Assembly (NCBI GenBank): GCA_023134145.1
Contig: JAGLUW010000013.1
Span: 1-64,000 of the forward strand
Reading direction: 5' to 3'
Length of the DNA: 64,000 nt
From: Sulfuriflexus sp.
GTDB taxonomy: Bacteria; Pseudomonadota; Gammaproteobacteria; AKS1
Shown here: in pieces, positions 38,379 through 51,845 of the stretch
Numbering within the stretch: position 1 is the stretch's first letter
How the letters are laid out: each line of letters begins with the position of its first letter
Program-made: the position numbers and the translations under genes
Notes under the pieces: generated by a model
Database searches by the model: none
What the model saw: the letters and a program-made list of their open reading frames with translations, nothing else
What the model was told of the DNA's origin: nothing

Positions 38379-39737
38379 ATGAATCAAGTTGCTGTAAAAC
38401 CTGCTGCCGAAGGGCTGCCAGCTCAAATTGAACTGGAAAAGACCATTGCGAATGCCATTGAGATAGCGACGGCCTCTGGTGCCAGCGCTGTAGAGGCTGC
38501 TATTAGCGCCGAAACAGGTTTTTGCGTTACCGCCCGAATGGGTGAGGTTGAAACAGTCGAGCATAACCGCGACAACGGCTTGGGCATTACCGTTTATTTT
38601 GGACATCGCAAAGGCTCCGCAAGTACCACCGATACCTCCGAAAAGGGCATACGCAGCACAGTGCAAGCCGCCTGTGATATTGCGCGTTACACCGCTGAAG
38701 ACAAATGTGCTGGACCGGCTGATAAAGAAGATTTGGCGACAGAGTTTCTTGATTTAGAAATGAATCACCCCTGGGAAATTGATACTAGTGCAGCGATTGA
38801 GTTAGCTATTGAATGTGAAGCGGCAGCTTTAGAATACGATAAACGCATTAACAACTCGGAAGGTGGCTCGATCTCAAGCCATACTGGCCTGCGTGTTTAT
38901 GGTAGTAGCAATGGTTTCCTTAATGGTTATGCGAGTAGTTACCACAGCGCGAGCTGTGCAGTCATTGCAGAAGATGAAAGCGGTATGGAGCGTGACTACT
39001 GGTATAGTTCGGCACGTCAATCGAAAGCACTTGAAGACATGGCAAGTATTGGACATAAAGCCGCTGAACGAACCCTATCAAGGTTAGGTGGGCAACGACT
39101 CAGTACCCGCACAGCGCCAATTTTATTCTCTGCTGATGTGGCGGCAAGCTTATTAGGCCACTTCATTTCGGCAATCCGTGGCAGCAGTTTGTATCGCAAG
39201 GCTTCCTTTATGTTGGATCGTGTAGACGAGCAAATATTTGCTGAACACATTCGTATCCATGAACAGCCACATCTTCTCGGCGCATTAGGTAGCGCACCTT
39301 TTGATAATGAAGGTGTAACAACACGACCTCGTGATTTGGTAACCGATGGTGTGTTGAATGGTTATGTTCTCGATAGTTATTCCGCACGTCGGTTGGGTTT
39401 AAAAACCACAGGTAATGCCGGTGGCGTACACAACCTAACAATTGAGCCGGGCAAGCTAGATGCGCAAGGCCTGCTTAAAGAAATGGATACGGGTTTATTA
39501 GTAACAGAATTGATGGGCTCAGCTGTTAATGGTGTTACCGGTGATTACTCGCGTGGTGCGTCTGGTTTCTGGGTTGAAGGTGGCAAGATTCAATATCCGG
39601 TTTCTGAAATCACTATCGCTGGTCACCTTAATGATATGTATAAAAATATCGTTGCTGTTGGTAATGATGTTGATCTACGTCGCAACACGCGTACCGGTTC
39701 TATCCTCTTGGAAGAAATGACCATCGCTGGCGAGTAG
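38379..39737 (+). CDS. pmbA: metalloprotease subunit PmbA/TldE
   Basis: 452 residues of the PmbA/TldD superfamily, without the HExxxH zinc motif, as expected for the non-catalytic TldE partner. The conserved C-terminal stretch VTGDYSRGASGFWVEGGKIQYPVSEITIAG and RNTRTGSILLEEMTIAG are clear. It forms the heterodimer with TldD. The next gene on this strand starts 348 nt later. Confidence 0.96.
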   Translation: MNQVAVKPAAEGLPAQIELEKTIANAIEIATASGASAVEAAISAETGFCVTARMGEVETVEHNRDNGLGITVYFGHRKGSASTTDTSEKGIRSTVQAACDIARYTAEDKCAGPADKEDLATEFLDLEMNHPWEIDTSAAIELAIECEAAALEYDKRINNSEGGSISSHTGLRVYGSSNGFLNGYASSYHSASCAVIAEDESGMERDYWYSSARQSKALEDMASIGHKAAERTLSRLGGQRLSTRTAPILFSADVAASLLGHFISAIRGSSLYRKASFMLDRVDEQIFAEHIRIHEQPHLLGALGSAPFDNEGVTTRPRDLVTDGVLNGYVLDSYSARRLGLKTTGNAGGVHNLTIEPGKLDAQGLLKEMDTGLLVTELMGSAVNGVTGDYSRGASGFWVEGGKIQYPVSEITIAGHLNDMYKNIVAVGNDVDLRRNTRTGSILLEEMTIAGE

Positions 39738-39791: not shown

Positions 39792-39825
39792 CGTCATTGC
39801 GAGGAGCGCAGCGACGTGGCAATCC
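39792..39825 (+). repeat. GC-rich palindromic interspersed repeat, copy 1
   Basis: A 34-nt element beginning CGTCATTGCGAGGAGCGCAG and ending in GGCAATCC. Its outer ATTGC/GCAAT arms are inverted. The same sequence type is a widely seen dispersed intergenic repeat in many proteobacteria. A diverged copy in the same orientation lies at 42712-42745, on the other side of the FNT-kinase pair; 29 of 34 positions match. Confidence 0.75.
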
Positions 39826-39881
39826 AATCAATCTATAAAGCTTTTTAATAGAAATAGCTGCCGCACCAATCTGAAAATACA

Positions 39882-39898
39882 CGCACCATAATAGTGCA
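39882..39898. promoter_or_regulatory. NtrC-like operator upstream of FNT
   Basis: CGCACCATAATAGTGCA matches the NtrC consensus TGCACC-N5-GGTGCA at all but the first base and the inner right base. Another GCACCA half site lies 20 nt upstream (39863), about two helical turns away, so two dimers could bind side by side. The operator centre is about 100 nt upstream of the -24 element, a normal enhancer distance. Confidence 0.6.
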
Positions 39899-39982
39899 AT
39901 ATGCCTAGCGTAGATTTCATAAAGTAGTTATCTAGTAAAATAATTTCATATATAACAATAAGATATAAAACCTCACCTGTTC

Positions 39983-39998
39983 TGGCACTACTATTGCA
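39983..39998 (+). promoter_or_regulatory. sigma-54 (RpoN) core promoter of the FNT gene
   Basis: TGGCAC-TACTA-TTGCA is a full match to the -24/-12 consensus, with the invariant GG (39984-39985) and GC (39996-39997) separated by exactly 10 nt. Transcription would start near 40008 and leave a ~77-nt leader. The rpoN gene is at 50.4-51.8 kb. Confidence 0.85.
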
Positions 39999-40085
39999 AT
40001 CGTTCTGGTAGCAATCAACATACTTATAGAAATGGCTCTTAAATGATCCACGAATATTAATTTAGATTTCAAAGAGGAAGTCACG

Positions 40086-40895
40086 ATGTCGTACTTAGAA
40101 CCAACAGAGTTTGTTACAAAAATGGTGGATGCGGGAGAATCCAAGGTTTACATGTCCACAAAGGACACACTGATTCGTTCCTTTATGGCGGGTGCAATTT
40201 TAGGACTTGCTGCGATATTTGCTATCACTGTTGCTGTTAAAACAGGCTCGCCTCTAACAGGTGCAATCCTTTTCCCTGTTGGCTTCATTATGTTGTATTT
40301 AATGAAATTTGATCTCCTAACTGGCGTGTTTACCTTAGTACCACTTGCTCTCTTTGACAAAAGAGCGGGCGTCACTGTAAACCAAGTATTACGAAATTGG
40401 GGACTGGTATTTCTAGGCAACTTTGCAGGCGCACTCACGGTCGCTTTTATGATGTCATTTGTTCTGACCTATGGATATAGCGCTGATGGTGGTGCGCTGG
40501 CGGCAAAAGTAGCAAGTATTGGTGAATCGAGAACGTTGGGTTATAAATCACATGGTGTTGATGGTTGGTTTACGATTTTCATTCGCGGCATGTTATGTAA
40601 CTGGATGGTTTCAATGGGTGTTGTAGGCGCAATGATCTCAACATCGGCAAGTGGCAAGATGATGGCGATGTGGATGCCGGTTATGCTGTTCTTCTTTATG
40701 GGTTTTGAGCACTCAATTGTTAATATGTTTTTGTTCCCTTTCTCTATGATCATGGGTGGTGAATTCACTATCTTTGATTACTTTGTATGGAACGAGATCC
40801 CGACTGTTTTGGGTAACTTGGCAGGTGGTCTACTCTTAGTGGGTCTTCCGTTGTATTACACCCACGTAAGAACAAGCCCAACCCGTAGTATATAA
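40086..40895 (+). CDS. formate/nitrite transporter family (FNT) channel
   Basis: 269 residues, six to seven membrane helices. Family motifs include LLTGVFTLVPLALFDKR near residue 77, RGMLCNWMVSMG near residue 169 and the pore-helix GFEHSIVNMFLFP with the central histidine near residue 207. FNT channels pass formate, nitrite or hydrosulfide across the inner membrane. Its NtrC/sigma-54 control region argues for nitrite uptake for assimilation rather than formate export. It is followed by a kinase/phosphatase gene on the same strand. Confidence 0.93.
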   Translation: MSYLEPTEFVTKMVDAGESKVYMSTKDTLIRSFMAGAILGLAAIFAITVAVKTGSPLTGAILFPVGFIMLYLMKFDLLTGVFTLVPLALFDKRAGVTVNQVLRNWGLVFLGNFAGALTVAFMMSFVLTYGYSADGGALAAKVASIGESRTLGYKSHGVDGWFTIFIRGMLCNWMVSMGVVGAMISTSASGKMMAMWMPVMLFFFMGFEHSIVNMFLFPFSMIMGGEFTIFDYFVWNEIPTVLGNLAGGLLLVGLPLYYTHVRTSPTRSI

Positions 40896-40913: not shown

Positions 40914-40945
40914 AAACTTCAGTCACCTGTTAGTGGCTGAAGTTT
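40914..40945 (+). terminator. stem-loop between FNT and kinase genes
   Basis: AAACTTCAGTCAC, loop CTGTTA, GTGGCTGAAGTTT: a 13-bp stem with one T-G pair, starting 18 nt after the FNT stop. No U-run longer than three follows, so it may be a leaky terminator or an RNA-stability stem that lowers kinase output relative to the channel. Confidence 0.5.
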
Positions 40946-40986: not shown

Positions 40987-42708
40987 ATGTCTAAGCAATT
41001 AAAAATATCTGTTGGACAGCATTCCGATAAAGGCCGCAAGGAAGTCAATCAAGACTTCCATGGTGTTTCAATACCTAAGGAACCGGCCTTAACCTCGAAA
41101 GGTATTGCTGTTGCGTTGGCAGATGGGATCAGCAGCAGCAATGTAAGTGACATTGCTAGTAAAGCCGCTGTTAAAGGATTCTTGGAAGATTATTTTTGTA
41201 CCTCAGAAACATGGTCAGTAAAGAAATCTGCAGAACGCGTATTAATGGCAACCAACTCCTGGTTGCATTCACAGACTCAACAGAGCCAACATCGTTTCGA
41301 TAAAAATAAAGGTTATGTCTGTACCTTAAGTGCAGTAGTGATTAAATCAACAACCGCACATATTCTCCACATTGGTGATTCACGTGTTTATCGTTTGCGT
41401 GATAATAAATTAGAACAATTAACTGAAGATCACCGCCACTGGATCTCATCAGAGAAGAGTTATCTAGGCCGTGCTATGGGCATGAACCTGCAGTTGGATA
41501 TTGATTACAAGGCCTTATCGGTAGAGAAGGGCGATATATTCGTTTTGGCAACCGATGGTGTTTATGAATTCGCCGATGCTGATTTTATTATTTCTAAAAT
41601 AAATGAATGTGCTGATGACCTCGAAAAAGCAGCAATGGATATTGTTGGTGAAGCCTACGAGAAGGGAAGTACGGATAATCTTACCGTGCAGATTGTTAAG
41701 GTTGATGAATTACCGAATCAAGCTGCCAACGAGATTTTTCAGAAACTAACCAAGCTGCCGTTTCCTCCAATACTGGAACCACGAGAAACATTTGACGGAT
41801 ATAAAATTATTCGTGAAGTGCATGCTAGTAGTCGAAGCCATGTTTATCTTGCGGTTGATATTGAAACAGACATGCAGGTTATTATAAAAACACCTTCTGT
41901 AGATCTTCGTGATGATCCTGCTTATCTTGAACAGTTTCTCATGGAAGAATGGATTGCGCGGCGCATAAACAGCGCCCACGTATTAAAACCTTGTACACAG
42001 AAGCGTAAACGTAACTTCTTTTACATTGTGACTGAGTACATCGATGGTCAGACCTTAGCGCAATGGATGATCGACAATCCCAAGCCAGACGTAGAAACAG
42101 TACGCGGTATTGTTGAACAAATTGCTAAGGGTTTAATGGCATTTCATAGAATGGAAATGTTGCATCAAGATTTGCGGCCAGCAAATGTCATGATTGATAA
42201 TACGGGTACGGTGAAGATTATTGATTTTGGTTCTACTCGCGTTGCCGGTATTCAGGAGATAACCACAGAAATCGAACAAAGTAATATACTCGGTACAGCA
42301 CAATATACGGCGCCGGAATATTTTTTGGGTGAACGAGGTACTTCTCGTTCAGATTTATTTTCCTTAGCGGTTATTACTTATCAAATGTTATCAGGACGAC
42401 TTCCTTATGGCACAGAAGTGCCAAAATCTCGTACAAAATCTGCACAACGAAAATTGAATTATCAGTCGGTATTAGATGATGATCGTGAAATTCCTGTTTG
42501 GTTTGATGAAGCGCTGAGAAAGGGCCTTCATCCAAACCCTTATAAACGCTATGAAGAGTTGTCTGAGTTCTTATTTGATCTTCGTCATCCGAATAAAGAA
42601 TTTATTAGTAAAACCCGTCCACCATTAATGGAACGGAATCCGATACTCTTTTGGAAAAGTGTTTCGTTTATATTGGCTGTAACGGTTGCGGTGTTGTTGG
42701 TTAAGTAA
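40987..42708 (+). CDS. PP2C phosphatase / Ser-Thr protein kinase fusion, membrane anchored
   Basis: 573 residues. N-terminal PP2C domain (~5-240) with metal-binding aspartates D23 (NQDF), D46 (LADGIS), D190 (LATDGV) and D230 (STDNLT). Then a Hanks-type kinase (~270-540) with Lys301 (VIIK), the catalytic loop HQDLRPAN (Asp395, Asn400) and DFG at 413-415. The arginine of HRD is replaced by Gln. A C-terminal helix (~552-572) anchors it, catalytic parts in the cytosol. Such fusions occur near nitrate/nitrite assimilation genes in other gammaproteobacteria. The partner FNT gene 91 nt upstream is the obvious candidate target or partner; this is an inference. Confidence 0.92.
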   Translation: MSKQLKISVGQHSDKGRKEVNQDFHGVSIPKEPALTSKGIAVALADGISSSNVSDIASKAAVKGFLEDYFCTSETWSVKKSAERVLMATNSWLHSQTQQSQHRFDKNKGYVCTLSAVVIKSTTAHILHIGDSRVYRLRDNKLEQLTEDHRHWISSEKSYLGRAMGMNLQLDIDYKALSVEKGDIFVLATDGVYEFADADFIISKINECADDLEKAAMDIVGEAYEKGSTDNLTVQIVKVDELPNQAANEIFQKLTKLPFPPILEPRETFDGYKIIREVHASSRSHVYLAVDIETDMQVIIKTPSVDLRDDPAYLEQFLMEEWIARRINSAHVLKPCTQKRKRNFFYIVTEYIDGQTLAQWMIDNPKPDVETVRGIVEQIAKGLMAFHRMEMLHQDLRPANVMIDNTGTVKIIDFGSTRVAGIQEITTEIEQSNILGTAQYTAPEYFLGERGTSRSDLFSLAVITYQMLSGRLPYGTEVPKSRTKSAQRKLNYQSVLDDDREIPVWFDEALRKGLHPNPYKRYEELSEFLFDLRHPNKEFISKTRPPLMERNPILFWKSVSFILAVTVAVLLVK

Positions 42709-42897: not shown

Positions 42898-43485
42898 TTA
42901 CTTACCTAAAAAATCAATATTTATAAATGTAAACACAACAACCAAAATGGTCCCTGTAATAAATGAATATGTCTTGGCTTTATTTAATAATGAAACATTG
43001 TTATTAATTTTATTTTGTTTCTTCAAATCAGCATCAAGGTCTGTTTCTTCACCTATAGTATCAAGCTGTGCTGAACATTGTGTTTTTGCAGCATCATAGG
43101 CCGTATTATCGCCCCTTGCCTCGGCATCAATAAGGCTCGTCTTTAATTCGCTGAAGCAGCTTTTTATTTTTAAAGCATGCTTCCTGCGAAGTATTAACGA
43201 TTCAAAGGCGACATCAAAACCTCTGTCCGCAACAATGAAATTTGCAGTGGCAAAACAGATAGAAAGAATAAAAGAGACAACACCTATTGCCGCAACGATA
43301 AAGCATGTTCCTGAACCTATCGGTAAAAAAGCAAAGGTAAACCCAAGCGATGCGGTCGATAGAGTTATAATGTGGTTATCCCAATCTGTGTGGTGCTGCC
43401 TTTTGGAAGAGTTGAGCTCTTCCTGCTCAACATCAAGTATCTTCTCTAGCCTATTAGGAAAGTCGTCTATATCATCCGTACCCAT
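42898..43485 (-). CDS. unknown three-helix membrane protein
   Basis: 195 residues, AGGATAGG ribosome site just upstream of the ATG. A charged N-terminus (~1-36) precedes two adjacent helices (~38-56 and ~62-84), a polar, charged middle part (~90-170) and a final helix (~172-191). The two-helix, soluble, one-helix layout is a little like SLATT-type effectors, but no motif is strong enough to assign it. It lies in the loosely packed stretch between the kinase and the peptidase gene. Confidence 0.65.
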   Translation of the reverse strand: MGTDDIDDFPNRLEKILDVEQEELNSSKRQHHTDWDNHIITLSTASLGFTFAFLPIGSGTCFIVAAIGVVSFILSICFATANFIVADRGFDVAFESLILRRKHALKIKSCFSELKTSLIDAEARGDNTAYDAAKTQCSAQLDTIGEETDLDADLKKQNKINNNVSLLNKAKTYSFITGTILVVVFTFINIDFLGK

Positions 43486-46101: not shown

Positions 46102-47847
46102 TTAGGTATCAATACCGATATTCATGGCGTTAACAATCTTCTCAACATCACTTTGGCGGGCGCTATTAAGTGTTCTGCGAGCAGGTTTTTCATATTCGCG
46201 TGTGTCGCTGCTATTAATAATACGCTTCACTTCGAGCAGGGCAGAAGGATGCATACTGAATTCGCGTAAACCCAGTCCGAGCAGTAGGCGTGTAAAATCG
46301 GGATCACCTGCCATCTCACCACACATGGAGATAGGTATCTTGGCCTTGTTCGCAGCGCGAATAGACATATGAATAAGTTGCAAGACAGCTGGGTGTAATG
46401 GTTCGTAGAGGTAGCTCACCTCATCATCGATCCGGTCGATCGCCAAGGTGTATTGGATAAGATCGTTAGTACCAATGGAAAGGAAATCGAGTTGTTTAGC
46501 AAACTGGTTGGCCGAAAGTGCTGCCGCAGGAATTTCGATCATGCCACCGAGTGGAATGACATCGGCGTAGGTTTTACCTTCACGATCGAGTTCGAGTTTG
46601 GCATCATCAATAAGTTGTTTGACCTGATGGAGTTCAGTCAGGTTAGACAACATCGGGATCATGATGCGCACAGGGCCATGTGCCGATGCGCGTAAGATGG
46701 CGCGAAGTTGTGGCATGAACATTTCAGTGTCACGTAAGCAAAGCCGAACAGCACGTAGCCCAAGTGCGGGGTTAGTACCGGCTTGTTTGCTGGAGGCAGC
46801 GCCATCAACTTGTTTGTCGGCACCAAGATCAAAGGTACGAATTGTCACTGGCGCACCCTTGAGTGACTTAATTACTTTTTTGTAGACGGAGAACTGCTCG
46901 TCTTCAGAAGGGAAGTCATCACGGTTCATGTATAAGAACTCAGTACGGTAAAGACCAATACCTTCGGCGGCGACTTTACGCACGGCAGGAATATCTTCGG
47001 GCAGTTCTATATTGGCATGTAGACGAATTGTTTGATTGTCGAGGGTAATAGCCGGTTTGCCCTTAAGCTCTTTGAGTTCATTGAGGCGTTTCTTTTCTTG
47101 GCGTTGGCGACGGCGATAATATTTGGCGGTATTTTCACCGGCATCGGCGAGCACTGTGCCGGTTCTGCCATCAATAATAATATCTTCATTTTCTTTTAGG
47201 AAACTACGCGCATTATGCAGGCCAACAATGGCGGGTACGCCAAGGCCACGAGCAAGAATTGAGGTATGTGATGTTGGCCCACCAAATTCGGTAATGAAAC
47301 CGGCGATACCAAAATGTTGCATTAGTACGGTATCGGCAGGGCTTAGATCATCGGCAATCAGAATGGCGCCTTTCAAACGACTATCAACGTCACTGGCACG
47401 TGCTGATTCATCTAATAACAAACCGAGAACACGATTTACCACATGATCGATATCATCTTTACGCGTGCGTAGATAAGGATCGTCCATTTCGTCAAAGACT
47501 TTTACCAGCATATCGCGTTGTTGCTTAAGCGCCCATTCCGCATTGCATTGCTGCTGTTTAATCATGTTGATGGGCTCGTCACTGAGCATCGAGTCCTGAA
47601 TCATCAGTAAGTGTGCATCAATGAATGAGCCAATATCGGCAGGGGTGTTTTCAGGGATGTGCTTACGAATGGCTTTCAGTTGTGTACTGGCAGTTAGCAA
47701 CGCTTTTTTAAGGCGAGCAATTTCATCATTAACAAATTTCTTTGGTACGACGTATTCAGGGATCTCGATTTGCCCACGGCGTAATATATGCGCTTTACCT
47801 AGCGCAATACCGCGTGATACACCTGTTCCTGAAAGTGCGAGGCTCAT
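46102..47847 (-). CDS. ptsI: PTS enzyme I
   Basis: 581 residues with the phospho-histidine H194 (FGGPTSHTSILARGLGVPAIVG) and the PEP-binding C-terminal domain (RTEFLYMNRDDFPSEDEQ, FLSIGTNDLIQYTLAIDR, SMCGEMAGD). It lacks the N-terminal GAF domain of PtsP, so it is EI-type. It passes phosphate from PEP to HPr, encoded just upstream. No sugar-specific EIIB or EIIC lies nearby, so the chain is probably regulatory. A GGATT site precedes the ATG. Confidence 0.96.
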   Translation of the reverse strand: MSLALSGTGVSRGIALGKAHILRRGQIEIPEYVVPKKFVNDEIARLKKALLTASTQLKAIRKHIPENTPADIGSFIDAHLLMIQDSMLSDEPINMIKQQQCNAEWALKQQRDMLVKVFDEMDDPYLRTRKDDIDHVVNRVLGLLLDESARASDVDSRLKGAILIADDLSPADTVLMQHFGIAGFITEFGGPTSHTSILARGLGVPAIVGLHNARSFLKENEDIIIDGRTGTVLADAGENTAKYYRRRQRQEKKRLNELKELKGKPAITLDNQTIRLHANIELPEDIPAVRKVAAEGIGLYRTEFLYMNRDDFPSEDEQFSVYKKVIKSLKGAPVTIRTFDLGADKQVDGAASSKQAGTNPALGLRAVRLCLRDTEMFMPQLRAILRASAHGPVRIMIPMLSNLTELHQVKQLIDDAKLELDREGKTYADVIPLGGMIEIPAAALSANQFAKQLDFLSIGTNDLIQYTLAIDRIDDEVSYLYEPLHPAVLQLIHMSIRAANKAKIPISMCGEMAGDPDFTRLLLGLGLREFSMHPSALLEVKRIINSSDTREYEKPARRTLNSARQSDVEKIVNAMNIGIDT

Positions 47848-47856
47848 TGAGAATCC

Positions 47857-48126
47857 TTATTCATTTTCGCCAAATTTATTATTAACCAGTTCATTCAACT
47901 GATTCAATGCCGCTTCTTCATCTTGTCCACTTATATGTAGAGTAAGTTGAGTGCCTTTTGCCGCAGCGAGCATCATGACGCCCATAATACTTTTTCCGTT
48001 AACGGTGCGGCCTTCACGAGAAATTTGAATGTCACTATTAAATGAAGATGCGAGGGTGACAAACTTGGCCGCAGCACGCGCATGCAAGCCTAATTTATTT
48101 ACGATGGTAATATCCATATCAGTCAT
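47857..48126 (-). CDS. ptsH: phosphocarrier protein HPr
   Basis: 89 residues from the ATG at 48126; this start puts the active histidine at H15 (NKLGLHARAAAKF) and the HprK target serine at S46 (GKSIMGVMML), both the canonical positions. The ORF-track start lies 16 codons upstream inside the EIIA gene. It carries phosphate between EI and EIIA proteins and can be Ser-phosphorylated by HprK. It overlaps the EIIA gene by 8 nt. Confidence 0.95.
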   Translation of the reverse strand: MTDMDITIVNKLGLHARAAAKFVTLASSFNSDIQISREGRTVNGKSIMGVMMLAAAKGTQLTLHISGQDEEAALNQLNELVNNKFGENE

Positions 48127-48517
48127 TGTGCGGATGCTCCATTTTGCATGTGAGTACACCGTCTTTGCCACCACTTAATGCTTTATTTATAAGACCATCT
48201 AGCTCAAGCCGTGGGTAATTGAGTACGCGCACCAACATAGGAAGATTGATGCCACTAATTATTTGCGTAATACCTTGCTCATGTAAATGACAAGCGATAT
48301 TGCTTGGTGTTGAACCATACATATCAGTGAGTACCAATGTACTGGTGTTCTTTTTAATTAAAGATCTTGCATTTTCGAGAATGTCATCAGGGTTAGCATT
48401 TTTTTCTACACTGATGGTATCTATCTGCAACGGTGTGACACCCAGCATCGACGTCGCGGTATCAACTAATGATGCCCCGATATTATCATGGGTGATAATG
48501 AGTAAACTGACAGCCAT
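48119..48517 (-). CDS. PTS EIIA component, mannose family
   Basis: 132 residues. The mannose-type EIIA has its phospho-histidine at H10 (LLIITHDNIG) and the LTDMYGSTPSNIA segment. In the hprK-type PTS block of proteobacteria this protein is a regulatory phosphoacceptor without a matching permease. It starts 27 nt after hprK, and here directly follows it, with no rapZ between. Confidence 0.93.
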   Translation of the reverse strand: MAVSLLIITHDNIGASLVDTATSMLGVTPLQIDTISVEKNANPDDILENARSLIKKNTSTLVLTDMYGSTPSNIACHLHEQGITQIISGINLPMLVRVLNYPRLELDGLINKALSGGKDGVLTCKMEHPHND

Positions 48518-48544
48518 TATTAAATTTAAATCCTACGTGGTTAT

Positions 48545-49504
48545 TTAATTATTTTTATTTATAAAATCTTGTTGGCGTTGAATGAAACTTTCGGCTGCAT
48601 TATAACCCTTATATAAGAGGCTATGGTTTCGTACCGCAATTTCAACTAAAACTGCCAAATTTCGCCCTGGTGCAACGGGAATCGTGATTTGTTCAACGTC
48701 GACACCGAGTATGTTTTGTAATTGGTGGCTGCCACGTAGGCGATCAATCTGTTGCAGTTGCTTCTCACTCATTTCTTCTAAATGCATGATGAGGCGCAGG
48801 TATTTATTATCTTTAATGGTGTTGTCACCAAACATAGCGCGGATATTAAGAATACCGAGACCACGCACTTCAAGAAAATCTTTTAGTTGCGGAGGACATT
48901 CGCCGCTTAATGTGTCTGGAGCTACCCTTGAAAATTCAGGGGCATCATCGGCGATGAGCCGGTGGCCTCGGCTAATTAACTCTAAGGCTAATTCGCTTTT
49001 ACCAACACCACTCTCACCTGTTAGCAAAATACCGATGCCATTAACCTCAAGGAACACGCCATGCAAAGTTAATCTGTTGGCGAGAGTATGAGATAGATAA
49101 TACTGTAAATGATTAACAATGAACTGACTATTTTGCAGAGATGAAAATAAGGGAATACCACTGTTATTAGAATGCGTTATTAACTCGTCTGACGCTTGAA
49201 TACTATTGGCAACAATAATACACAGCGGTTCGCCATCGTAGAGACCTTGAATAGCATTGTCTCGCTCAACCGTTGTTAAACTTTCAAGATAGGCTGTTTC
49301 ACGATAGCCAATTACTTGAATTCGGTGAGGATGAATAAAATTCATATGGCCGACAAAAGAAACGTCGGGCACATCTTCTACAGAGAGTTGCTTGTCTTCA
49401 AATTGAATAAAGCGGTCTTTACCATCATTGCCAGCAATGTGTTCGAGAGTGAGTTTGTCTCGATGTGTCTCAAATAATTCACTGACAGCAATGGATGTAA
49501 TCAT
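48545..49504 (-). CDS. hprK: HPr kinase/phosphorylase
   Basis: 319 residues. Walker A GESGVGKS (163-170), the preceding HGVFLEVNGIG and the C-terminal signature EVRGLGILNIRAMFG are all canonical. It phosphorylates and dephosphorylates HPr at Ser46. In this gammaproteobacterial context it links metabolic state to the regulatory PTS. One nucleotide separates it from ptsN. Confidence 0.95.
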   Translation of the reverse strand: MITSIAVSELFETHRDKLTLEHIAGNDGKDRFIQFEDKQLSVEDVPDVSFVGHMNFIHPHRIQVIGYRETAYLESLTTVERDNAIQGLYDGEPLCIIVANSIQASDELITHSNNSGIPLFSSLQNSQFIVNHLQYYLSHTLANRLTLHGVFLEVNGIGILLTGESGVGKSELALELISRGHRLIADDAPEFSRVAPDTLSGECPPQLKDFLEVRGLGILNIRAMFGDNTIKDNKYLRLIMHLEEMSEKQLQQIDRLRGSHQLQNILGVDVEQITIPVAPGRNLAVLVEIAVRNHSLLYKGYNAAESFIQRQQDFINKNN

Positions 49505-49505
49505 G

Positions 49506-49970
49506 TCATTCTACTGTTGCTTGCCAATCAGTTATTAAGGCATGAATTTCAGCCGGTGTTTTAGCTTGACGAATTTTATCGCAAATCATTTCATCGCTGA
49601 AAAGAGTCGCTAATTTCGCCAATATTTCTAAATGTTCATCGGTTGAATCTTTAGGTACGAGTAAGCCAAAAACGAGATCAACGGGTTTACCATCAATGGC
49701 ATCAAAATCGATGGCGCTTTGCAATTGCAAAAAGACGCCGATCGATTTTCCGCCAGTTTGTACACGTCCATGTGGGATTGCGACACCATGACCAATTCCT
49801 GTACTACCGAGACGTTCTCGGGAGACAAGGCTTTCAAAGATCTCTTCCTCAATGAGGTCGGGATTTTTTTTTGTCGTAAGTTCAACCAGTTTTTCAAGCA
49901 CGCGTTTCTTACTGGAAACATTAACAGTATTCGCTATGCAGTCTGGCGATAAGATGTCGATTATGTTCAT
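49506..49970 (-). CDS. ptsN: PTS IIA-Ntr regulatory protein
   Basis: 154 residues of the fructose-type EIIA fold; the phospho-histidine is H67 in GHGVAIPHGRV. It controls potassium uptake and other targets according to its phosphorylation state and is classically encoded after rpoN and hpf, as here. Confidence 0.96.
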   Translation of the reverse strand: MNIIDILSPDCIANTVNVSSKKRVLEKLVELTTKKNPDLIEEEIFESLVSRERLGSTGIGHGVAIPHGRVQTGGKSIGVFLQLQSAIDFDAIDGKPVDLVFGLLVPKDSTDEHLEILAKLATLFSDEMICDKIRQAKTPAEIHALITDWQATVE

Positions 49971-49993
49971 AAAACGTATTCAGTCCTAATTTC

Positions 49994-50332
49994 TTATTCT
50001 TCAATATCTTGAAGAGGTTGGTTTTTCAAACCACCATCTGCACGATGATGGTCAGAATCTTTTTCTTTGTGTTTCTTGATTTGCCGATCAAGTTTATCCG
50101 TTAAGCTATCAATTGCCGCATACATATCTTCGTCTGTAGAATCAGCAAAAATATCATGTCCTTTAATGTGAATTGTCGCTTCGGCTTTTTGGCGAAGTTT
50201 TTCCACACTGAGAATAACGTGTATATTTGTTACGTTATCAAAGTGTCTTTTTAGGCGTTCAAGCTTTGTATTGACGTAATCGCGCATAGAATCAGTGATG
50301 TCAACGTGATGTCCAGTAATGTCAATTTTCAT
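49994..50332 (-). CDS. hpf: ribosome hibernation promoting factor HPF
   Basis: 112 residues from the ATG at 50332, preceded by TAGGAG; the ORF-track frame opening at 50437 lies inside rpoN. MKIDITGHHVDITDSMRDYVNTKLERLKRHFD is the S30AE/YfiA family start. The short length fits the HPF class that helps form 100S dimers together with RMF. A polar tail of about 17 residues goes beyond E. coli HPF (95). Confidence 0.94.
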   Translation of the reverse strand: MKIDITGHHVDITDSMRDYVNTKLERLKRHFDNVTNIHVILSVEKLRQKAEATIHIKGHDIFADSTDEDMYAAIDSLTDKLDRQIKKHKEKDSDHHRADGGLKNQPLQDIEE

Positions 50333-50357
50333 AAAAATACTCCTAAGTAGAACCGGC

Positions 50358-51845
50358 CTACATAAGGCGCTTACGTTCATTGGAAGGTGGTATCGACATC
50401 GCTTCGCGGTACTTGGCAACGGTACGACGGGCGACATTGATACCCTGTTGAGCCAATATTGAAGCGATTTTATTATCGCTTAATGGCTTTTTCGGTTCTT
50501 CAGCAGCAATTAGCTTTTTAATTAAGGCACGTATCGCTGTTGATGAACATTCTCCACCACTTGCGGTACTAACGTGGCTAGAGAAAAAATACTTTAATTC
50601 AAAAATCCCTCTTGGGGTGTGTAAATATTTACGTGTGGTCACGCGTGAAATAGTCGACTCATGCATTTCTACCGTTTCAGCAACGTCATGAAGCACTAAG
50701 GCTTTCATTGCTTCTTCACCATGTTCGAGAAAACCACGTTGTCGTTCAACAATACAAGTGGTGACCTTGAGCAAGGTTTCGTTACGGCTTTGTAAGCTTT
50801 TAATGAGCCAACGTGCTTCCTGTAAATTATCTTTCAGGTAATTATTGTCTTTGCTGTTGTCAGCACGTTTAATCAGGTTGGCATAGGTGCTATTAATATT
50901 TAGCTTAGGCGCAACGTCTGGGTTGAGTTCGACTTTCCAGATCCCTTTTACTTTGCGCACATAAACATCAGGCACAATATATTCGGTTCTTTGGCTAGAT
51001 ATTTGGCTACCGGGTCGAGGGTTGAGTGAACGTATGAGAATGACGACATTTTGTAATTCATCTTCACTCAGCTTCATCTTGCGCATAAGTTGGTTGTAGT
51101 CATGCCCTGCTAATAGATCGAGATGATCATGAACCAGTTTCATGGCTAATTCGCGATGCGGCGTATCCGCGTCGAGTTGCCCGAGTTGTATGTACAGGCA
51201 ATCACCGAGGTCGCATGCGGCAACGCCAGTCGGTTCGAAATTTTGTATTTGTCTTAATACGGCTTGAATTTCGTCAATTTCAAGTTCAGGAATATCAGCA
51301 ATGAGACTTCCATGAATTTCATCGAGAGGTGTTGTGAAATAGCCATCTTCAGTAATGGCGTCGATAATAGCGACAGCAATTTGCACATCGGTATCACTGA
51401 ATGGCGTTAAGCTCATTTGCCAAGTGAGATGATCTTGTAGGTTCTCAGAATCATAACTACTGATATCGATTTCACGATCATTAAATGAACCACCTGATGC
51501 AGGACCTGATAGAGATTGGTAATTAGTCGGTTCGTAGATATCTTCCCATGAGGTATCAACCGGTAGCTCATCGGGCATTTCCGATTGTGCCATTGCCTTA
51601 TCGGTATCGGCAGCCGCGATCTCTTCGCTGGCACTGGCTTTTTCTTTAAGTGGGGAATTTTCTTCTGGTGAATTTACACTAGGTTCGTCAGGTTCGGTAA
51701 CCTCAAGCATGGGGTTACTTTCGAGTGCTTCTTGAATTTCACTCGTTAGCTCTAACGAAGACAACTGTAACAAGCGTATTGCCTGCTGCAGCTGCGGTGT
51801 CATGGTTAAGCTCTGGCCCAGCTTGAGCTGGATGGACTGTTTCAT
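50358..51845 (-). CDS. rpoN: RNA polymerase sigma-54 factor
   Basis: 495 residues. Region I is Gln/Leu-rich ([23 protein letters not shown]), region II acidic (~55-120), and region III carries the core-binding part, the helix-turn-helix and the RpoN box [10 protein letters not shown]. It directs transcription at -24/-12 promoters such as the one at 39983. The gene order lptA-lptB-rpoN-hpf-ptsN is the standard one. Confidence 0.97.

Follow-up and report, generated by a model that had tools for sequence, protein, structure and literature searches.

A predicted NtrC-activated sigma-54 promoter ahead of an FNT channel gene paired with a PP2C/kinase gene in Sulfuriflexus sp.

The window analyzed here is a 64,000-nt stretch of DNA from Sulfuriflexus sp. 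(GCA_023134145.1, contig JAGLUW010000013.1, positions 1-64,000, forward strand). On the plus strand it encodes an FNT-family anion channel of 269 aa (40086-40895; Pfam PF01226, E = 2e-65), followed by a fusion of a PP2C phosphatase and a Ser/Thr kinase (40987-42708; 573 aa) that carries a C-terminal hydrophobic anchor and matches PF13672 (67 bits) and PF00069 (126 bits), both over cut-off; relatives of this protein are annotated under the same name. An inverted repeat between the two genes, AAACTTCAGTCAC/GTGGCTGAAGTTT (40914-40945, plus strand; 13-bp stem, fold z = -4.9), forms a hairpin that is predicted to act as an attenuator. Directly 3' of the kinase gene, the opposite strand encodes a 195-aa protein (42898-43485) with no Pfam match. 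On its 5' side, the FNT gene is separated by a gap of 348 bp from the preceding gene (452 aa), whose end is at 39737; this gap includes a palindrome-rich element, GTCATTGCGAGGAGCGCAGCGACGTGGCAATCC (39793-39825), present as a single copy in this genome and resembling repeats that are common in other proteobacteria.

The same gap contains an exact sigma-54 -24/-12 element, TGGCAC-TACTA-TTGCA (39983-39998, plus strand; 0 mismatches to TGGCAC-N5-TTGCW, with GG-N10-GC spacing), with 87 nt between its end and the start codon of FNT (ATG, 40086). Counting 12 nt from the C of the -12 GC, transcription would be expected to start at about 40009 (± 2 nt), near the 40008 given in an earlier sequence-only reading of this DNA. 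An NtrC-type palindrome, CGCACCATAATAGTGCA (39882-39898, plus strand; 2 mismatches to TGCACC-N5-GGTGCA), constitutes the predicted enhancer, 101 nt start-to-start from the sigma-54 element, and an NtrC-like half site, GCACCAA (39863-39869, plus strand), lies 20 nt above the left arm of the palindrome, i.e., about two helical turns. The sequence-only reading had described this layout (a near-perfect sigma-54 promoter before FNT, a palindrome about 100 nt above it, and a half site 20 nt further); its distances proved right, and both upstream sites are conserved among relatives. Relative to the expected start, the center of the palindrome falls near -119 and the half-site region near -139, positions that we take to resemble those of the enhancer of E. 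coli glnA. Between enhancer and promoter is an AT-rich block, ATAACAATAAGATA (39952-39965, plus strand), nearly invariant in five aligned close relatives; the glnA promoter of the same genome has a similar block, AACAATAA. IHF-type sites between enhancer and promoter showed no clear enrichment (11 of 36 regions vs 6.6 ± 2.2). A sigma-70 promoter for FNT was rejected, the count of such sites being no higher than in shuffles, and a search of the leader for known leader RNAs or antiterminators gave no credible Rfam match, with one weak miRNA match far below its gathering score.

The 2.32-Mb genome was surveyed by pattern and family searches, on which all genome-wide statements are based. By itself, the palindrome has no value as evidence: at up to three mismatches, 21 sites occur in the window against 22.8 expected, which is not significant. 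The exact TGGCAC-N5-TTGCA element is rare, being found at 2 sites in the genome, and at 7 if TTGCW is allowed. Three of these seven lie near FNT, nirB, and nasA, which diverges from nirB; the others are near a type IV pilin gene, two clusters of flagellar genes, and a gene for a GGDEF regulator accompanied by a fructosamine-kinase-like gene. As sigma-54 classically acts on genes for pili, flagella, and nitrogen, an exact match seems to be a good marker in this genome. The sequence-only reading had proposed a whole-genome scan for NtrC and RpoN sites as a check; a composite pattern (GCAC-N7-GTGC, 60-90 nt, TGGCA-N7-TGC) matched two places only, FNT and glnA, and the reversed pattern used as control matched none. 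When the composite was searched in a 75-105 nt version across 232 gammaproteobacterial genomes, 63 matches were obtained vs 1 for the reversed pattern, including 15 directly before nirB, 2 divergent from nirB, and 3 before FNT, which ties the predicted architecture to nitrite assimilation without FNT having served as bait.

Conservation was assessed in FNT loci from 80 relatives with named hosts, an uneven sample comprising the best 80 of more than 590 candidates, of which 78 had usable upstream regions; shuffles and 148 other genes served as controls. A sigma-54 site with at most one mismatch is present in 37 of the 78 regions (shuffles 0.35, largest 2; control genes 5/148), an exact site in 12 (shuffles 0.02; control genes 0/148), and the joint architecture of palindrome plus sigma-54 site in 22 (shuffles 0; control genes 2/148), with start-to-start spacings that are mostly 100-126 nt. 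The 101-nt spacing of the window recurs identically in two genomes of the same genus (G115 and G216) and in locus L015. Across five aligned close relatives the half site, the palindrome, the AT-rich block, and the promoter element are all kept while much else varies; the letters of GCACCAA do not differ between the window and any of the four close relatives aligned with it, and in most they stand 20-21 nt from the palindrome. It is scarcely credible that the site matches are accidents without function: the palindrome alone is indeed no commoner than expected, but the uniqueness of the composite to FNT and glnA in this genome and the cross-genus footprint over 78 upstream regions led us to reject chance as an explanation.

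The sigma-54 site goes with the leading gene of the operon, whether this is FNT or the cyanase gene cynS. It stands before FNT in 33 of 57 FNT-first loci (from the best 80 of more than 590), whereas in loci with cynS immediately ahead of FNT it was found before FNT in 2 of 14 and before the leading cynS in 10 of 14; convergent cynS genes have a sigma-54 site of their own in 4 of 6 cases. The FNT-first loci of Campylobacterota have none (0/5). At this threshold of at most one mismatch, almost half of the relatives with FNT first show no site, so that either sigma-54 control does not extend to all of them or the search was too strict.

Sigma-54 itself is encoded in the window by rpoN (50358-51845, minus strand; NF004595, 734.9 bits vs a cut-off of 513), near genes for HPr kinase, an EIIA-man-type PTS protein, and PTS enzyme I (46102-51845), a possible nitrogen-PTS region. 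One protein exceeds the NtrC cut-off (contig C38; 739.8 bits vs 558.6), and ntrC is thus present. Upstream of glnA are two palindromes, CGCACCATATTAGTGCG and AGCACCAGAATAGTGCA, followed by TGGCATAATTACTGCA, and a further palindrome with one mismatch, TGCACCATTATAGTGCA, is located at C30:226, past a 213-aa gene adjoining glnA and near the contig end; the FNT palindrome has nearly the same sequence as both the tandem sites linked to glnA and TGCACCATTATAGTGCA. Like FNT, glnA (with a glnAp2-type NtrC/sigma-54 promoter) has a palindrome plus a second upstream site, a -24/-12 element, and the same half-site letters. The two differ in that glnA has two palindromes where FNT combines a single complete one with a half site, in that the -24/-12 element of glnA has two mismatches while that of FNT is exact, and in that the FNT promoter would drive a channel gene. 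With the composite shared only with glnA, the footprints, rpoN in the window, and a true ntrC, control of FNT by NtrC and sigma-54 is very likely, and, as a prediction, its placement in the NtrC regulon by the sequence-only reading has strong support. The sites could also be real and serve another sigma-54 EBP, such as a cyanate- or nitrite-sensing protein like CynF, the dedicated sigma-54 activator that drives the cyn genes in Pseudomonas pseudoalcaligenes (PMC6627978); at least seven other NtrC-like activators are encoded in the genome. We consider this improbable, given that the FNT palindrome matches the NtrC-type sites before glnA and that no EBP-sized activator gene is found among the ORFs beside FNT. 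The promoter itself is of an ordinary, textbook kind, and the interesting part is the module of channel, kinase, and cyanase.

The channel protein scores 221 bits against the FNT profile PF01226 (curated cut-off 34.6) and falls below the cut-offs of both the FocA equivalog TIGR04060 (128.1 bits vs 290.1) and NF008595, the equivalog for the enterobacterial nitrite channel NirC (56.8 bits vs 293). Among solved structures, LCIA is the nearest to it and FocA the next. In alignment with FocA, both GFEHSIVNMF (the GFEHS motif, with the central His) and DLLTG (with the Omega-loop Thr) are present, and we assume that these His and Thr residues line the pore. Annotations often describe FNT channels as formate transporters, and those of the records here carry formate-transport terms; with FocA also among the best family and structure matches, the protein might be a FocA-like formate channel, whose nitrogen control would serve the export of formate from the breakdown of nitrogen compounds. 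This is very unlikely, however, as the FocA score is far under the equivalog cut-off and the recurrent partners of FNT are nirB, cynS, and the kinase gene, not formate enzymes. Most likely, the channel would serve not formate but the scavenging of nitrite or cyanate for their nitrogen.

Of the best 80 of more than 590 loci, 34 have cynS no more than 4 kb from FNT (30 of 61 if only loci with long enough flanks are considered), counts that include loci L024 and L029, found by tblastn. The gene orders are cynS-FNT-kinase, FNT-cynS-kinase, FNT-kinase-cynS, and FNT-kinase with convergent cynS. In 10 of the 80 loci, nirB was seen. Co-occurrence was assessed in 232 evenly drawn genomes of Gammaproteobacteria, 23 with FNT at 57% identity or more and 209 others, by Fisher tests that ignore phylogeny: cynS is present in 13/23 FNT genomes vs 19/209 others (p = 2.6e-7), nirB in 20/23 vs 91/209 (p = 5e-5), and one or both in 23/23 vs 99/209 (p = 1.3e-7). 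All 10 FNT genomes without cynS have nirB, and three have cynS without nirB. With respect to distance, 11 of 13 cynS genes are within 3 kb of FNT, and 4 of 20 nirB genes are within about 5 kb; across relatives, cyanase is the closer genomic neighbor of FNT than nitrite reductase. On a quick FNT tree, the cynS label requires 21-22 changes by parsimony, of which well-supported branches force only 5.

Annotated plasmids provided an independent source for partner genes. Those with cynS have FNT-kinase-cynS (Psychrobacter), cynS plus FNT-kinase (Acinetobacter), or FNT-cynS (Rhizobium); others have FNT-kinase with nirBD, a Moraxella plasmid has cynS with FNT-nirBD, and on three other annotated plasmids with FNT neither cynS nor nirB is nearby. 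The Psychrobacter example is a 17-kb mobilizable plasmid bearing FNT, the PP2C/kinase gene, and cynS (L174:4867-7947), and the FNT-kinase-cynS module therefore probably moves horizontally.

In the Sulfuriflexus genome itself, nirB (C8:16-2355) is on a different contig from FNT, which lies outside the nas cluster. An exact sigma-54 site (C8:2421-2436) belongs to nirB, the divergent nasA also has an exact site, and a single NtrC-like palindrome with two mismatches is between them. No PF02560 match, i.e., no cynS, was found in the 89%-complete assembly, and since the region beside FNT is intact, cynS is not adjacent to FNT in this genome. Within the genus, G115 has the order FNT-cynS-kinase, and G216 has FNT-kinase with no cynS found.

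The channel could be primarily a cyanate channel throughout the family, the Sulfuriflexus genome being a recent loser of cynS or having cynS in the missing part of the assembly. The frequency of cynS near FNT in several gene orders, the arrangement in G115, the nesting of the window's FNT among cynS-bearing relatives on the quick tree, and the three FNT genomes with cynS and without nirB all speak for this reading. We nonetheless hold it to be rather unlikely, as every FNT genome without cynS has nirB, some FNT-kinase pairs are beside nirBD with no cynS, and neither this genome nor G216 yielded cynS. The sequence-only reading had favored nitrite assimilation over formate metabolism, which fits this genome (nirB and nasA with sigma-54 and NtrC-like sites, no cynS found) but missed cyanate. 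For Sulfuriflexus sp., our best guess is thus nitrite assimilation rather than cyanate; across the family we propose nitrite and cyanate together, a partly supported proposal for which the earlier nitrite reading is too narrow. Marine cyanobacteria take up nitrite through the FNT protein NitM, and according to excerpts of the report neither cyanate nor formate inhibited this uptake (PMC4390861); dual use of nitrite and cyanate therefore cannot be assumed.

A relative of the PP2C/kinase gene is downstream of FNT in 73 of the 80 loci (best 80 of more than 590), and 43 of 55 FNT-kinase gaps have a fold z < -2, some with terminator-like T tracts. Because a hairpin separates the genes, here and in most relatives, the kinase gene is probably expressed less than FNT, by read-through transcription only. 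The suggestion in the sequence-only reading that the regulon perhaps extends to the kinase is accordingly upheld in part: the pair is conserved, but the intervening hairpin probably leaves the kinase to read-through. A second transporter-kinase pair is present on contig C8 (L125:2849-6125), where an MFS nasA-like gene is followed by a PP2C/kinase paralog, divergent from nirB; this paralog is 48% identical to the FNT-linked kinase, and both have a hydrophobic C-terminal segment. From the gene order and the anchor, our guess is that the PP2C/kinase acts on the channel.

Taking together the sites, their conservation, the gene pairing, and the co-occurrence, all read from sequence, we consider it highly probable that FNT is transcribed from an NtrC-activated sigma-54 promoter and that the channel imports small nitrogen anions when ammonium is scarce. 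Under ammonium scarcity, NtrC-P would occupy both the palindrome and the half site next to it, some 120-140 bp upstream, and would loop to sigma-54 polymerase at 39983-39998, with transcription starting near 40009. The channel would then admit nitrite (in relatives, cyanate), which in Sulfuriflexus sp. would be reduced by NirB, encoded on another contig behind what appears to be the same kind of promoter. The PP2C/kinase, expressed at a lower level via read-through past the hairpin, would probably tune the channel or a membrane partner. More tentatively, FNT and its kinase may represent a widespread, horizontally moving module for nitrogen scavenging, whose PP2C/kinase, anchored in the membrane, would gate an FNT channel admitting both nitrite and cyanate and whose NtrC/sigma-54 control would fall on the operon leader. 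The FNT-kinase pair, the predicted nitrogen control, and the repeated cynS and nirB partners, found in culturable genera and on plasmids, make the question of cyanate transport directly testable (Gilvimarinus, Colwellia, and Thalassolituus are examples of culturable relatives with this layout), and the pairing hints at a role for a family of kinase/phosphatases that has received little study.

Among open-licence papers, we found none in which FNT, the kinase, cynS, and NtrC are brought together. In alpha- and betaproteobacteria, NtrC controls genes for nitrate and nitrite uptake and reduction, including nasAB, nasDE, nirA, narK, and nrtABC, as described in excerpts of a regulon survey (PMC5343134). 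The predicted FNT system shares NtrC control and nitrogen-oxide uptake with these nas/nir/narK genes, and nirB/nasA of Sulfuriflexus sp. carry exact sigma-54 sites and an NtrC-like site; FNT, the kinase, and cynS are absent from the NtrC-regulated genes described in those excerpts (PMC5343134). NitM is likewise an FNT protein serving nitrite assimilation, although the excerpted account describes no kinase partner for it, unlike the FNT protein here (PMC4390861); the likeness is one of described function. The focA/nirC genes adjacent to cynS in nitrifiers have been proposed to encode a cyanate transporter, a role called uncertain in the excerpted source (PMC10753782, citing Spang 2012 and Palatinszky 2015). 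They likewise place FNT beside cyanase and invite the same cyanate hypothesis, whereas, compared with that excerpted account, the FNT module here is found chiefly in Proteobacteria and includes a PP2C/kinase partner as well as a predicted sigma-54/NtrC promoter (PMC10753782). Finally, the CynFABDS system of P. pseudoalcaligenes assimilates cyanate under sigma-54 and ammonium control; it has sigma-54 control in common with the predicted FNT system but has an ABC transporter in place of FNT and a dedicated activator, CynF, in place of NtrC (PMC6627978).
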